Assembly (NCBI GenBank): GCA_028293265.1
Contig: JAQGPB010000166.1
Location: forward strand, 1 to 8,932
DNA: 8,932 bases
Direction: 5' to 3'
Source: Pedosphaera sp.
GTDB lineage: Bacteria > Verrucomicrobiota > Verrucomicrobiae > Limisphaerales > Pedosphaeraceae
Position 1 is the stretch's first letter; each line of letters starts with the position of its first letter. Below are positions 3,062 through 8,932 of this stretch, piece by piece. The position numbers and the translations under genes were made by a program. Below the pieces are notes generated by a model, which did no database searches, was not told the origin of the DNA, and was given only the letters and a program-made list of their open reading frames with translations.

Positions 3062-4492
3062 ATGAAGGGCAAAAGCTTCTTTTGGGCCGCATTATTTCTA
3101 TTTGGATTTGTCTGGCAGTCGGATGCCGGAAGTCTCCAGCGCATTGGTCATACGACTTTGACCCCGCGCCACTCCCTTCCCGATGACAAAGGGATGTATG
3201 CCGCAGTCATAGACCCGGTCGGCGGCTACGCCTATTTTTTCGGCAACTACTTGTTCAAGCTCGACATCACTGGGAATCTTCCCGTGATGGTCGGCACGAA
3301 CATCCAGACTGGACAGTCCGCCGAGGCCGCAATTGATCCGGCAGGCGGATTTGCCTATCTGCCGAAGGGGAATGGACTCATCAACCGCTACGCGCTTGGA
3401 TCTGGAAACAATTCACCCGCCAGCGCCGGCTCCCTCACGTTGCCAGGCTCCGGCCCCGTCTCCATCGTCATTGATGACTCGGACCCGAATCCAACCAATC
3501 ACTATGGTTACGTGCTTACCTCCGGCACTCCCGCCAAGGTGGTCAAGGTGGCCCTCTCCAATTTTACCGCCGTCTCCTCGGTGACGCTCAATGCCGGGGA
3601 AAATAATTTTGCCTGGGGGCAGATTGACACCAAGAATGGCTATGCCTATTTCGCAAGTTATATTCTCTATACCAGCCCCGCCATCCCGCAAATTCTCAAG
3701 ATTAAATTGACGCCCGGCACGAATGCGCCCATCCGTATCGGCACCGTCAACCTGGGCGCAACGCCCGTTCCGCTTTGGACATCTTCCATTGATACCTTGC
3801 ATGGTTACGCCTACTACTCAACGGACAACGGCACGACCAACATTCCAGAAACCGTTTTCAAAGTGAAGCTGGGCGACGGCGATGCCTTGCCAACGCCGGT
3901 GCCGTTCGGCGGCGTCAGCTTTCACACCAACGAGGTGCAGATCATTTCCCAAATCATTGACCCTGTCGGCGGCTATATTTATTTTAATGATGACAATACC
4001 TATCCCGGCCGGGTTTATCAATTTACCCTGAACGGGACTAACCCGCCCGTGGAACTTGGTTATTTGCAACTTCAAGGTGGTACGCAAACACCTCCGCCCA
4101 ACGGCATCACCGCCAATAATACCACCACCAATGCCGACGGGATCGTTCCCTTTGGGGAGGTCTTTCTGCGCTCGGCGGTCTTCGACCCCGTGCGTGGGTT
4201 TGCCTATATCGGCCAGGACTGCCGCCCCAATCAAGTCGTCAAAATCCAGGTCGCTCGCGATGTGCCCGTCATGACCAGTGCGGGAACTCAGCCGGGCGGC
4301 GTGTTTCAATTCAGCTACACCAATACGCCGGGCGTGGCAGGCGTCATACTGGCAGCCACGAACGCCGCATTGCCGGCGACCAACTGGACCGCACTCGGCA
4401 CTGCCGCAGAAATTTCGTCGGGCCTGTTCGTGTTCGCCGACCTGCAGGCCACGAACAGCCCGCAACGCTTCTACCGGGTCCGTTCACCCTGA
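3062..4492 (+). CDS. Secreted seven-repeat (probable beta-propeller) protein with C-terminal module
   Basis: This is a 476-residue protein with no family name that I recognise. Residues 1-22 form a Sec signal peptide (MKGKSFFWAALFLFGFVWQS, probable cleavage at SDA-G). Residues about 45-400 hold seven imperfect repeats built on the pattern Ile-Asp-Pro-x-x-Gly-Tyr-Ala-Tyr followed by a Val-x-Lys-hydrophobic strand. The repeats are anchored at D51, D92, about D139-D141 (the most divergent), D189, D244, D300 and D375. Seven units of 40-75 residues fit a seven-bladed propeller of the YVTN/lactonase type. Residues about 415-476 form a separate module containing TNWTALGTAA and ending QRFYRVRSP, similar to the end of the next gene's product. 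There is one cysteine (C387) and no CxxCH. The next gene starts 57 bases downstream on the same strand, suggesting an operon. Base composition looks less GC-rich than in the neighbours. The role may be extracellular binding, but this is unproven. Confidence 0.85.
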   Translation: MKGKSFFWAALFLFGFVWQSDAGSLQRIGHTTLTPRHSLPDDKGMYAAVIDPVGGYAYFFGNYLFKLDITGNLPVMVGTNIQTGQSAEAAIDPAGGFAYLPKGNGLINRYALGSGNNSPASAGSLTLPGSGPVSIVIDDSDPNPTNHYGYVLTSGTPAKVVKVALSNFTAVSSVTLNAGENNFAWGQIDTKNGYAYFASYILYTSPAIPQILKIKLTPGTNAPIRIGTVNLGATPVPLWTSSIDTLHGYAYYSTDNGTTNIPETVFKVKLGDGDALPTPVPFGGVSFHTNEVQIISQIIDPVGGYIYFNDDNTYPGRVYQFTLNGTNPPVELGYLQLQGGTQTPPPNGITANNTTTNADGIVPFGEVFLRSAVFDPVRGFAYIGQDCRPNQVVKIQVARDVPVMTSAGTQPGGVFQFSYTNTPGVAGVILAATNAALPATNWTALGTAAEISSGLFVFADLQATNSPQRFYRVRSP

Positions 4493-4549: not shown

Positions 4550-7234
4550 ATGAGACACCTTAAATGGCTCTGTCGGCTGATATTCGCAGCCGGATTGCTG
4601 GCAACGTCGGCCGAGGCTTCCGTCACGCTGACGAATCCCATCGTCTTCGTCACGCAGCCGCCGATTCCGCGCGAACTCAACAGTTCGGTGTCCAACACCT
4701 TTCTGTCGGTTGTCACAATTTTTGGCAATCACCTGCCCGACACCGCCCATTGCGCCCGCGGCGGGGATTTGTGGCTCCGTTACACCAACGGGGCGCTGCT
4801 CAATCTCACCCGCGCCGCCGGTTATGGCCTCGATGGCATCCAGCACACCAACGGCATCGCCGTGCGCGATCCGCAGATTTCCTGGGACGGCAGCCGCATC
4901 CTCTTCAGCATGGTCGTCGGCGCGCCGCGTTTCTCCGGCGACACCAACATTTTCTTTTGGCAGCTTTACGAACTGAACAATCTTGCTGCCGTCATCGCCA
5001 ATTCGAACATTCCGCCCGTCATCGTCAAGGTTCTCAATCAACCGGCTAACTGCAACAACGTCAGCCCTTGCTACGGCTCCAACGGGCGCATCATTTTCAC
5101 CAGCGACCGCCCGTTCAACAACCAGTCCTGGCTTTATCCCCAGCGCGACGAATACAAAGGCGCGCCGACTGTCACCGGCACTTACAGCCTCGATCCCGTC
5201 AGCGGCAATCTGGTCATGCTCGAACATCTCCCCAGTGGCGTGTTCAATCCTTTCGTGGACAGTTTCGGGCGGCTCATCATCACACGCTGGGATCATCTGG
5301 TGCAGGATTCCAGCGCCACCGGCGACCGCCTTGGCCGCACGACCAACGGCTCCTTTACTTTCACCAGCGAAGCGTCAAATGCCGTCGTCCTCGCCTCGAA
5401 CCCGCTCGAAAATTTTCCCGAACCCGTGGATTTCGACACCAACTACGCCGCCGCTCTCGGCGTAAATCCTAACGGCTTCAATTTCCTGCTTCCTTGGGCG
5501 CTCGATCAAGCAGGCGGCAACGAGGAAGTGCTCAATCACGTCGGGCGGCACGAGTTGCTTCCCGGAGTGGCTCCATCGTTCACCAACGACCCGAACCTCA
5601 TCGCGTTCACCAATGCCGCCACGCGCGGAGCCTTCGGCATCGAAAGTTCCAACACCAATTTCATCCAGAACTTCATCCAGATCACCGAGGATCCGCTCCA
5701 TCCGGGAACCTATTTCGGCGTGGACGCGCAGGATATTTCCATCTTCGGCGGCCAGCATGCGTCCGGGCAGATCGTCTCGCTCACCGGCGCAATGGGCTTG
5801 AATCCCACCAACATGGCCCTCAGTTACATCACTCCCAAATCCGGCGCGAACGGACCGAACAATCCCGTCGGCCTCTTTCGCAATCCCCTGCCAATGTCTG
5901 ACGGTTCTCTCGTCGCCGCCTATACGCGCACCTTTACGGGAACCAACTTCGGCGGTTGGGACACTAACCTCGGCTCCGTCGCCGCCCCCATCTCCATGTA
6001 TTCCTTCCGGCTCATGACCTTGGTTAACGGCGGCGCAGCATGGGCAACCAACACCTTCCTCACCGGCGGTTTGACGAACCCAGCCACTTACTGGGATGGC
6101 ACCACGCTCGTTTCCAACGCTGGTCCGCTTTGGGAATTGCAACCCGTGGAAGTTCGCGCGCGCCCCGTTCCGCCCTTGATCGTGACGCCGCCCGCCTCCA
6201 TCGAACAACAAGTTTTCGCCTCCGAATCCGTGGACCTGCCCACGTTCCAGGCCGACCTCGCGCAACGCAACCTTGCGCTGGTCGTGAGCCGCAACGTCAC
6301 CGCCCGTGACGCCGCCGACAAGCAACAGCCCTACAATCTTTCCGTGCCCGGCGGCGTCCAGACGCTCGGCACCAACACCGGAAAAATCTACAACATCACC
6401 CACCTGCAATACCTCCAGGCCGATTATCTGCGCGGCTACAATTTCGGCAACACCAACACCATTCAACCCGGACGCCGCATCCTCGCGACACCCCTGTACG
6501 CGTCTGCCGCCTTCAATTACGCCAGCACCCTCAGCAACGCGCCCGTGGGCGGCATTCAACTCATGTCCGACGGTTCGCAGGCGACCATTGTTCCCGCTGG
6601 CCGCGCCATCACCTGGCAGCTTACCGGCGTCACCAACGAAAGCATCGTCAAGGAACGCTACTGGCTCAACTTCCGCGCTGGCGAAATCCGCACCTGCGCG
6701 AATTGCCACGGCATCAACGACGTGGACCAGGCTGGCCGGCCCGCGCCCACCAACGCCCCGCTCGCCCTTCGTCAACTCCTGCGTTTTTGGCGCACCAATT
6801 CGGCGAACGCCTATTCGCTCACCGTCAGCAATGGAAATGGCGGCGGCAATTTCGGTGCGGGCAGCATCCTGACCTTGACCGCGAATCCCGCGCCCACGGG
6901 CAAGATTTTCTCGCAATGGACCGGCTCCGGCGTGAGCAACTTCTTGTCGCCAGCCACTCTCTTCACCATGCCCGCCGGCAATGCGTCCGTCACCGCCGTC
7001 TATTCCGATCTCCCGCCGCCCATACTCGGCGGCATCCAATTGCTTGGCGGCACGAATCTTTTGATTACCGCCGCCGGACTCGCAAACCAGCCATGGGTTT
7101 TGCAATCCTCCACCAACCTCGTGGCCTGGACCGACATCAGCACCAACCTCGCCGACGCCTTGGGCCACTTGCAGCTCACCAACGTTTCCACGTCCGGCGC
7201 CGGGCAGAAATTCTTCCGGCTGAAGTCTCCTTAA
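4550..7234 (+). CDS. Secreted HzsA-like monoheme protein with InlB-like repeat and C-terminal module
   Basis: This is an 894-residue exported protein. Residues 1-23 are a Sec signal peptide (cleavage at AEA-S). The first half has PD40/TolB-like strands such as SWDGSRILFSM and GSNGRIIFTSDRPFNNQ, then GVFNPFVDSFGRLIITRWDH. The central region has NPLPMSDGSLVAAYTRT and LWELQPVEVRARPVPP, which I recognise as typical of proteins annotated as related to the hydrazine synthase alpha subunit. Near the end of this core lies one heme c motif, CANCH (C716-H720), preceded by RYWLNFRAGEIRT. Residues about 755-819 are an InlB B-repeat-like domain (YSLTVSNGNGGG through FTMPAGNASVTAVYSD). Residues about 824-894 form a module with QSSTNLVAWTDIST, ending KFFRLKSP. 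Other cysteines are C8, C68, C168 and C174. The substrate is unknown; homology does not imply hydrazine synthesis. It follows the propeller gene by 57 bases. Confidence 0.82.
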   Translation: MRHLKWLCRLIFAAGLLATSAEASVTLTNPIVFVTQPPIPRELNSSVSNTFLSVVTIFGNHLPDTAHCARGGDLWLRYTNGALLNLTRAAGYGLDGIQHTNGIAVRDPQISWDGSRILFSMVVGAPRFSGDTNIFFWQLYELNNLAAVIANSNIPPVIVKVLNQPANCNNVSPCYGSNGRIIFTSDRPFNNQSWLYPQRDEYKGAPTVTGTYSLDPVSGNLVMLEHLPSGVFNPFVDSFGRLIITRWDHLVQDSSATGDRLGRTTNGSFTFTSEASNAVVLASNPLENFPEPVDFDTNYAAALGVNPNGFNFLLPWALDQAGGNEEVLNHVGRHELLPGVAPSFTNDPNLIAFTNAATRGAFGIESSNTNFIQNFIQITEDPLHPGTYFGVDAQDISIFGGQHASGQIVSLTGAMGLNPTNMALSYITPKSGANGPNNPVGLFRNPLPMSDGSLVAAYTRTFTGTNFGGWDTNLGSVAAPISMYSFRLMTLVNGGAAWATNTFLTGGLTNPATYWDGTTLVSNAGPLWELQPVEVRARPVPPLIVTPPASIEQQVFASESVDLPTFQADLAQRNLALVVSRNVTARDAADKQQPYNLSVPGGVQTLGTNTGKIYNITHLQYLQADYLRGYNFGNTNTIQPGRRILATPLYASAAFNYASTLSNAPVGGIQLMSDGSQATIVPAGRAITWQLTGVTNESIVKERYWLNFRAGEIRTCANCHGINDVDQAGRPAPTNAPLALRQLLRFWRTNSANAYSLTVSNGNGGGNFGAGSILTLTANPAPTGKIFSQWTGSGVSNFLSPATLFTMPAGNASVTAVYSDLPPPILGGIQLLGGTNLLITAAGLANQPWVLQSSTNLVAWTDISTNLADALGHLQLTNVSTSGAGQKFFRLKSP

Positions 7235-7393: not shown

Positions 7394-8932
7394 CTATTTC
7401 ACCGTCGTCATTTCAAACTTCGGGTTCACTTCCAATCGCAGTTCCTTGAACCGGACTTCCATCGGGCCGCCGGCGTGCATTTGCAAACCGGTGATGCCGC
7501 GCTTTGAGATTTGCGGGTCATCCAAATCCACGCAGAGATGGCCGTTGATGGCGGTGCGGATTTTGCCGTCCACGGCCAGGATTTCGTAGGTGTTCCAATC
7601 GTCCGCGTTCACATACGGATCGCCCGGCTTGTTGGAAAGAATGGCGCGGCCGTTTTCCTCATAGAGCTTGCCCCACCAGCCGGCGCCAACGTCCGCCTGC
7701 GGGCCTTTCATTTCGTAATCGCCGAATTTTTCGCTGCGGAATTGCACGCCGCTGTTTTCCTTGTTTGGCGTCAGCTTGATCTTCAACACCAAGCGGAAAT
7801 TTTCGAGCGTCATCTGGCTTTTCAAGAATTCGTTGTGCTTCAAGCCGGTAGTGGTGCTGCCGACAATCTCGCCGTTCTCGACGTGCCACAAATGTGGGTC
7901 TCCGTCCCAGCCGATCAGGTCTGTGCCATGAAAAAAGTCGCCCGGATTGGCCGGGACTTCGCTCACCGGCGGCAGCGGCACCTGGCCAGGGCGGCTGAGA
8001 TAATACAGCAGGTCGCGGACTTCCTGTTCGGTGAGCTGCTGGAGCAGCCCCTCTGGCATCATCGAGAGCGGGCTGATTTTCTGCGACTCAACCTCGTCCT
8101 TCGGCAGCACAAGCTGTTCATTCGCGGTAACGACGGTGAGCGCCTTGTCGTCCTGCTTGGTGACGATGCCGGTGATGCTGCGGCCATCCTTCATTTCAAT
8201 GTTGGACGCGCGATATTCATTGGGAATGACAGCGTTCGGGTCAACGATGTTCAGCAGGATGTAATCAAGATCGGCGCGCTGCGAACCGGTGAGGTCGGGA
8301 CCGACGTGGCCGCCGCTGTCAAACAGGGTGTGGCATTGCTGGCATGTCTTGGCAAAGACGGCGCGGCCGCGCGAGGCGTTGCCGGGTTGCGAACCGCCGG
8401 CCTGGTAAATGCGTTTGAACTTCGCGATGTCAGCCTTCATCTCCGCGCTGCTGTCGCGCGAGACGCCCCAGAGTTTCACGATGTATTGCTCGACCTCCTT
8501 GTCCTTGAGATTGCGAAGCTGCCGGACGAGGTCGGCGGTGAGGTCTTTCGCGTTGATGCTGCCCTGGGAAATTGTTGCGAGCAAAGGCTTGGCAAAATTG
8601 ACGCGCGCAACGAGGGTGCTGAGCGCATCGCGTTTTTGGCCGGCAGCGAGCGTGGAATAAACGGCGAGAATGGTGTCGGGAGTTTTGGCGTCGTCATAAC
8701 CGGCGAGGCCGCGCAACGCGGGGCCTTGGAGATCGCGGTTGTTGAGCAGCTCTTGGAGGAGCGGCGCGAGGCCGGTGTCGTGCGCGGCCAGGAGGGAATC
8801 CATGGCGGTGCGACGCGCGCCGGCGTCGGCGGAATCGTCCATGAGCGTTTTGCGGAGCGAGGCGAGCGCGCTGGAACTGCCGAAGATGAGCGAAAGCGAC
8901 TGGACTTGAGCGCGGATATCGGCATTCGCGCT
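7394..8932 (-). CDS. HEAT-like, heme c and DUF1080 fusion protein, N-terminus cut by the window edge
   Basis: The minus-strand frame is open from the right edge to the TAG at 7396-7394, giving 512 visible residues. An ATG at 8842 is in frame, but coding continues upstream of it, so the start is outside the window. Visible residues 1 to about 150 are helical and HEAT-like (DSLLAAHDTGLAPLLQELL, LRGLAGYDDAKTPDTILAV). A Pirellula/Verrucomicrobium-type heme-binding domain follows, with GRAVFAKTCQQCH (CQQCH at 197-201), GGHVGPDLTG, ILLNIVDPNAVIPNEYRA and the closing LTEQEVRDLLYYLSRP. From about residue 330 to the end lies a DUF1080 domain (FFHGTDLIGWDGDPHLW, NSGVQFRSEKF, YEENGRAIL, ADDWNTYEI, GITGLQMHAGG), now called a 3-keto-disaccharide hydrolase domain, with a concanavalin-like fold. 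The role may be periplasmic breakdown of 3-keto-glycosides coupled to electron transfer. A membrane-bound dehydrogenase-type N-terminal domain may precede, as in relatives. Confidence 0.92.
   Translation of the reverse strand, partial: SANADIRAQVQSLSLIFGSSSALASLRKTLMDDSADAGARRTAMDSLLAAHDTGLAPLLQELLNNRDLQGPALRGLAGYDDAKTPDTILAVYSTLAAGQKRDALSTLVARVNFAKPLLATISQGSINAKDLTADLVRQLRNLKDKEVEQYIVKLWGVSRDSSAEMKADIAKFKRIYQAGGSQPGNASRGRAVFAKTCQQCHTLFDSGGHVGPDLTGSQRADLDYILLNIVDPNAVIPNEYRASNIEMKDGRSITGIVTKQDDKALTVVTANEQLVLPKDEVESQKISPLSMMPEGLLQQLTEQEVRDLLYYLSRPGQVPLPPVSEVPANPGDFFHGTDLIGWDGDPHLWHVENGEIVGSTTTGLKHNEFLKSQMTLENFRLVLKIKLTPNKENSGVQFRSEKFGDYEMKGPQADVGAGWWGKLYEENGRAILSNKPGDPYVNADDWNTYEILAVDGKIRTAINGHLCVDLDDPQISKRGITGLQMHAGGPMEVRFKELRLEVNPKFEMTTVK

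Follow-up and report, generated by a model that had tools for sequence, protein, structure and literature searches.

A monoheme relative of the hydrazine synthase alpha chain from Pedosphaera, probably an exported c-type cytochrome

The gene at 4550..7234 on the forward strand (stop included) of an 8,932-nucleotide stretch of Pedosphaera sp. DNA, hereafter the window, encodes an HzsA-like monoheme protein of 894 aa that belongs to a little-studied bacterial family. We suggest that the protein is probably exported and acts as a stand-alone c-type cytochrome with one heme, using the propeller and middle-domain half of the hydrazine synthase (HZS) alpha chain as its scaffold and having a substrate-binding redox site. 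The fold, the single heme and the extracytoplasmic location are very likely; for a catalytic redox role the chances are evenly balanced. On the computed evidence this is the best explanation, given the fold match, the single CxxCH, the missing Tyr591 and second-heme domain, a supported clade, the lack of a constant partner and a conserved core.

Kinship with the HZS alpha chain had been proposed in a preliminary description of the sequence, and both profile-profile comparisons and the fold bear it out. The HZS_alpha middle domain (PF18582) matches residues 662-720 (6533..6709) at 24.0 bits (E 5.6e-5), below the Pfam gathering score of 26.6; the G001 family copy scores 30.9, and PF18582 is carried by 115 of the 120 listed relatives. 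In the profile-profile comparisons, which also place this domain, the window family aligns with 17 other PF18582 proteins at E 2.6e-22 and with HZS plus intermediates at E 1.3e-33. The predicted model matches the propeller and middle-domain fold of HZS alpha (HzsA; PDB 5c2v; NCBIfam NF052339) over 463 residues, and the structural match stops at chain residue 614. The TolB-like propeller core, shared with the N-terminal portion of HZS alpha, covers about residues 26-545 (4625..6184). TolB propellers themselves are not known to have a heme domain. The PD40-like strands of the preliminary description hold good as a propeller fold and not as a Pfam assignment, since PD40 (PF07676) gives no match at E <= 1 in the window protein.

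The heme c attachment motif, CANCH, lies at residues 716-720 (6695..6709) and is followed by the family-kept residues G721, N723 and Q727. It is the only CxxCH in the protein, in agreement with the single heme motif first described. A probable Sec signal peptide, read by eye from the sequence, occupies residues 1-23 (4550..4618), and the predicted model has a helix at residues 2-17 within it. The protein is therefore probably exported, and the kept motif together with this signal peptide suggests that heme is covalently attached at CANCH.

To compare heme sites we assembled 27 anammox alpha chains, full-length or nearly so, plus outside relatives; from 87 proteins 52 were used (27 anammox, 25 others), with fragments and weak hits excluded, and the family was represented in this comparison and in the tree by 20 of its 166 rows. 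The family, the intermediates and the anammox chains were aligned in two ways, by profile-profile comparison and with MAFFT. Both alignments place HZS His587 on H720, with the CxxCH of heme alphaI in the equivalent place, and HZS Cys303 on H334, while family position 330 has no counterpart in HZS alpha. The Tyr591 position holds Tyr in all 27 anammox rows and in none of the 20 family rows. Tyr591 is given as the iron ligand of heme alphaI in PMC12607021 and PMC12758564, and the latter shows a gap at this place in its clades I-III. Because Tyr591 is absent, as with that gap, the simplest reading is an ordinary His-ligated heme, in which His720 would be the ordinary iron ligand. Unlike HZS alpha, the window protein also has no heme alphaII domain. 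Other PF18582 proteins, named 'HzsA-related' or 'HZS_alpha domain-containing', share the core domains and the middle-domain pattern, and Tyr591 is missing from 24/25 intermediate and 17/17 other rows. This two- or three-heme group takes in the HZS-alpha homologues of PMC12758564. They differ from the family in having at least two CxxCH in 16/17 and 21/25 rows, respectively for the others and the intermediates, in lacking GRHE at the diagnostic loop (0/42 rows) and in falling outside the family clade.

In a FastTree tree of 89 sequences, built on 505 columns and midpoint rooted, the root falls on the family branch. This branch is long, and all 20 family rows group together on it with support 1.0. 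The 27 anammox chains make up a separate group (support 0.965), whose sister consists of nine other PF18582 proteins. The hallmark of the family is the loop NHxGRHE, which is NHVGRHE at residues 329-335 of the window protein (5534..5554) in the alignments. None of the 27 anammox rows, the 25 intermediates or the 17 other PF18582 proteins has the motif at that place, and the non-family rows printed are two residues shorter at this loop. The first set of 166 rows (148 unique) came partly from loci picked for CxxCH, so its heme counts are biased; those used here come from a 23-locus survey and a second set of 120 proteins, which are without that bias. Row set A1 took in 92 of the 120 listed proteins and row set A4 34 of 120. 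The exact motif is present in 134 of the 148 unique rows of the first set, the other 14 being 11 close variants and three unmatched by the pattern. In the second set the pattern or something close to it is present in 118/120, the remaining two reading NHVGRNE and NRVGRHE, and CHGxN follows the heme in all 119 proteins that have CxxCH.

Conservation was scored over 286 rows with a median pairwise identity of 0.49, in which there is some overlap between proteins and loci. At least 98% identity is kept at 84 of 719 core positions, led by Glu (10/19) and His (5/11), with none of the 86 Val and Ile positions; Glu, His, Asp and Arg are strongly conserved in the core. H249 is present in 286/286 rows, H330 in 285, H403 in 284 and H226 in 283. 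At the places of H226, H249, H403 and H330 the anammox chain P0121 has Tyr250, Ala273, Trp335 and a gap, so that the propeller bears a set of polar residues peculiar to the family. Beside the near-invariant H330, residue 334 (window 5549-5551) switches between His and Gln.

From these features a mechanism can be proposed. The protein would be exported and heme attached at CANCH, with His720 as an ordinary iron ligand. The heme would face a propeller site carrying H226, H249, H330 and H403, with E274, E291, E326, E380, D237 and D253. A small molecule could be bound between the heme and the propeller and be oxidised or reduced there, the electron partner being either soluble or at the surface. 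The InlB and tail modules are exchangeable and may serve to retain the protein on the cell surface or to sort it there.

Several observations weigh against this proposal. The nearness of the kept histidines to the heme is judged from the alignment with HZS. H334 is kept in 265/286 rows, with Gln in 20 and Asn in one; because Gln replaces it in about 17 separate clades, H334 is not essential. The HZS Cys303 position, on which it aligns, is Cys in only 9/27 anammox rows. One of the 120 second-set proteins lacks CxxCH. Whole-chain superposition in Foldseek is poor (TM 0.39-0.46, rmsd about 9), the family profile aligns with anammox HZS alpha alone over 56 residues (E 3.5e-4, probability 37), and a sequence search of the PDB with this profile returned no HZS alpha chain. 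Since the direct anammox alignment is short and the PDB search gave no HZS alpha match, the kinship rests on the intermediates and the fold. Finally, 3/23 loci (L069, L071 and L073) have an Ig-domain protein of cluster c2 immediately upstream of the gene and on the same strand, which tells against a solitary gene and makes a partner possible in part of the family.

The protein could instead be a pure electron-transfer or storage cytochrome, whose heme would be six-coordinate through His720 and a propeller histidine, e.g., H330 or H249, and whose propeller would only dock redox partners. We regard this as unlikely, although it has substance: any of the four near-invariant propeller histidines could give the sixth ligand, there is a single heme motif and no enzyme partner is obvious. 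However, the kept acidic and Arg residues are more than a two-ligand heme needs, and PMC12607021 describes the homologous HZS heme, alphaI, as high-spin, with a proposed catalytic role.

The C-terminal part of the protein raises a different alternative. The two extra modules described on the HzsA-like core are real. The first is an InlB B-repeat-type domain (PF18998, Flg_new_2) at residues 755-819 (6812..7006), which scores 34.4 bits against a gathering score of 23.6; it is a divergent repeat that passes the curated cut-off, here as an accessory behind a cytochrome-like core. The second is an Ig/FnIII-like tail module at residues 824-894 (7019..7231), recognised by comparison across proteins; in those tested, neither Pfam nor NCBIfam has a model that matches it. 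The tail is widely shared and not special to the window protein: one 7.7 Mb genome (G326) has 87 matches, and in the 30 fetched (L125-L154) it stands at the protein end in all 30. It is a candidate sorting or anchoring tag on the strength of this pattern. HZS alpha has neither module, and within the family the C-terminal modules vary among an InlB repeat, a Calx-beta domain and none named. The adhesin-type modules and the widely shared tail would suit a surface binding protein or adhesin in which the InlB, Calx-beta and Ig-like modules are functional and the heme is structural or sensory. Yet the polar residues of the core stay while the modules change, and many second-set proteins show PF18582 as their only Pfam domain, so we consider this reading rather improbable.

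A new class of heme enzyme is somewhat more doubtful still. Here the propeller His and acidic residues would bind a non-heme metal beside the c-type heme, giving a mixed redox centre. If this is true, Verrucomicrobiota and Myxococcota would carry such a mixed centre on their surface, and the clade would be a separate branch of the stock that gave HZS alpha.

As to the genomic neighbourhood, the window has five large open reading frames. Upstream on the forward strand are the C-terminal part of a PSD1 (DUF1553) protein (3-1265) and a DUF1501 protein (1333-2853), both named by Pfam. The listed TTG start of the latter is probably too early, as a twin-arginine-like TRRHFFRD signal, seen by eye, follows an ATG at 1399. 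A PSD relative thus neighbours the HzsA-like gene, and passages of PMC5615132 describe the PSCyt/PSD proteins of Verrucomicrobia as likewise being without known function. Next comes a 476-aa protein (3062-4492, forward strand), for which propeller-like is a fair label from its six xxIDPxxGYAYF-type repeats; no model names it, and it has no Pfam match at E <= 1. Downstream, on the reverse strand, is the C-terminal part of one protein with cytochrome c (CQQCH) and 3-keto-disaccharide hydrolase domains (7394-8932; Pfam).

No neighbour cluster recurs in more than three of the 23 loci, the window included. The clusters came from a simple longest-ORF (open reading frame) caller and contigs were often short; even so, a fixed partner would be expected to have come to light, and the HzsA-like gene is best seen as solitary. 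Ten hand-chosen neighbours include ThiC, a GDSL lipase, a PAS sensor, a PQQ propeller and Ig-domain proteins.

The preliminary description took the pairing with the propeller-like protein as a clue to function, and this did not hold up. The two genes are separated by 57 bases on the same strand, an operon-like spacing, and both proteins finish in a similar tail module (residues 395-476 of the neighbour, 4244..4489, by comparison). However, none of the other 22 loci has a protein that falls into a cluster with the neighbour, nor is the adjacency seen there, and full-length relatives of the neighbour, present in 4/16 genomes searched, are each on a different contig from the HzsA-like gene or genes found. 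A functional pair is very improbable.

That the protein is an unrecognised hydrazine synthase or another N-N forming enzyme is highly improbable: the fold is shared over those 463 residues, but an NCBIfam scan, which takes in NF052339 (cut-off 800 bits; anammox P0121 scores 1549.4), gave nothing at E <= 1, Tyr591 is missing, there is one heme motif, Pfam recognises no HzsB/HzsC-like (beta or gamma) gene among the window's open reading frames, and PMC12758564 takes the same view of the homologues examined there. The same features support the function other than hydrazine synthesis that was first proposed, and the window protein very probably does not make hydrazine. At the 22 other loci, where contigs are short and neighbours were judged by CxxCH counts only, one open reading frame has two CxxCH (L082).

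On the origin of hydrazine synthase, PMC12758564 (2025) argues that the enzyme evolved from pre-existing heme-binding periplasmic proteins. The present clade shows the HZS scaffold used without the HZS-specific ligand or the second heme. The preliminary description called the function undescribed, which is partly right. Descriptions exist of PF18582 and, beyond anammox, of HZS-alpha homologues (PMC12758564), and a close relative, P0069, has been named 'hydrazine synthase alpha subunit-like' by JGI; for the single-heme clade, which may or may not be one of clades I-IV of that paper, searches of open-licence papers listed no description.

The distribution of the family is patchy. In a sample from the order of one relative, 33/293 genomes have a match at E <= 1e-30; in a class sample, 38/188 have some match and 8/188 a match above 500 bits. 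At most three candidates per genome were scored in the order sample and at most four in the class sample, so that copy numbers are lower bounds. The source names of the listed proteins are mostly from Verrucomicrobia (Pedosphaera parvula, Prosthecobacter vanneervenii, Luteolibacter). Myxococcota (Pyxidicoccus parkwayensis, Hyalangium, Polyangia) also appear, as does a single partial record from a planctomycete. Since members are named for cultured genera (Pedosphaera parvula, Prosthecobacter vanneervenii, Luteolibacter sp. LG18, Pyxidicoccus parkwayensis), the chemistry can be tested at the bench. The members P0301, P0305 and P0306 of the monoheme clade bear the myxobacterial names Hyalangium, Polyangia (with a MYXO-CTERM annotation) and Pyxidicoccus, and such names hint at transfer between Verrucomicrobiota and Myxococcota. 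Any PF18582 match is found in 23/58 genomes sampled of the order, and the domain is expanded in single genomes of the same order, with 35, 25 and 17 matches in G212, G225 and G198. Some family gene copies (G278:C52 and G243:C297) have an internal stop or are split in two beside intact ones, and these are apparently decaying or mis-assembled paralogues.
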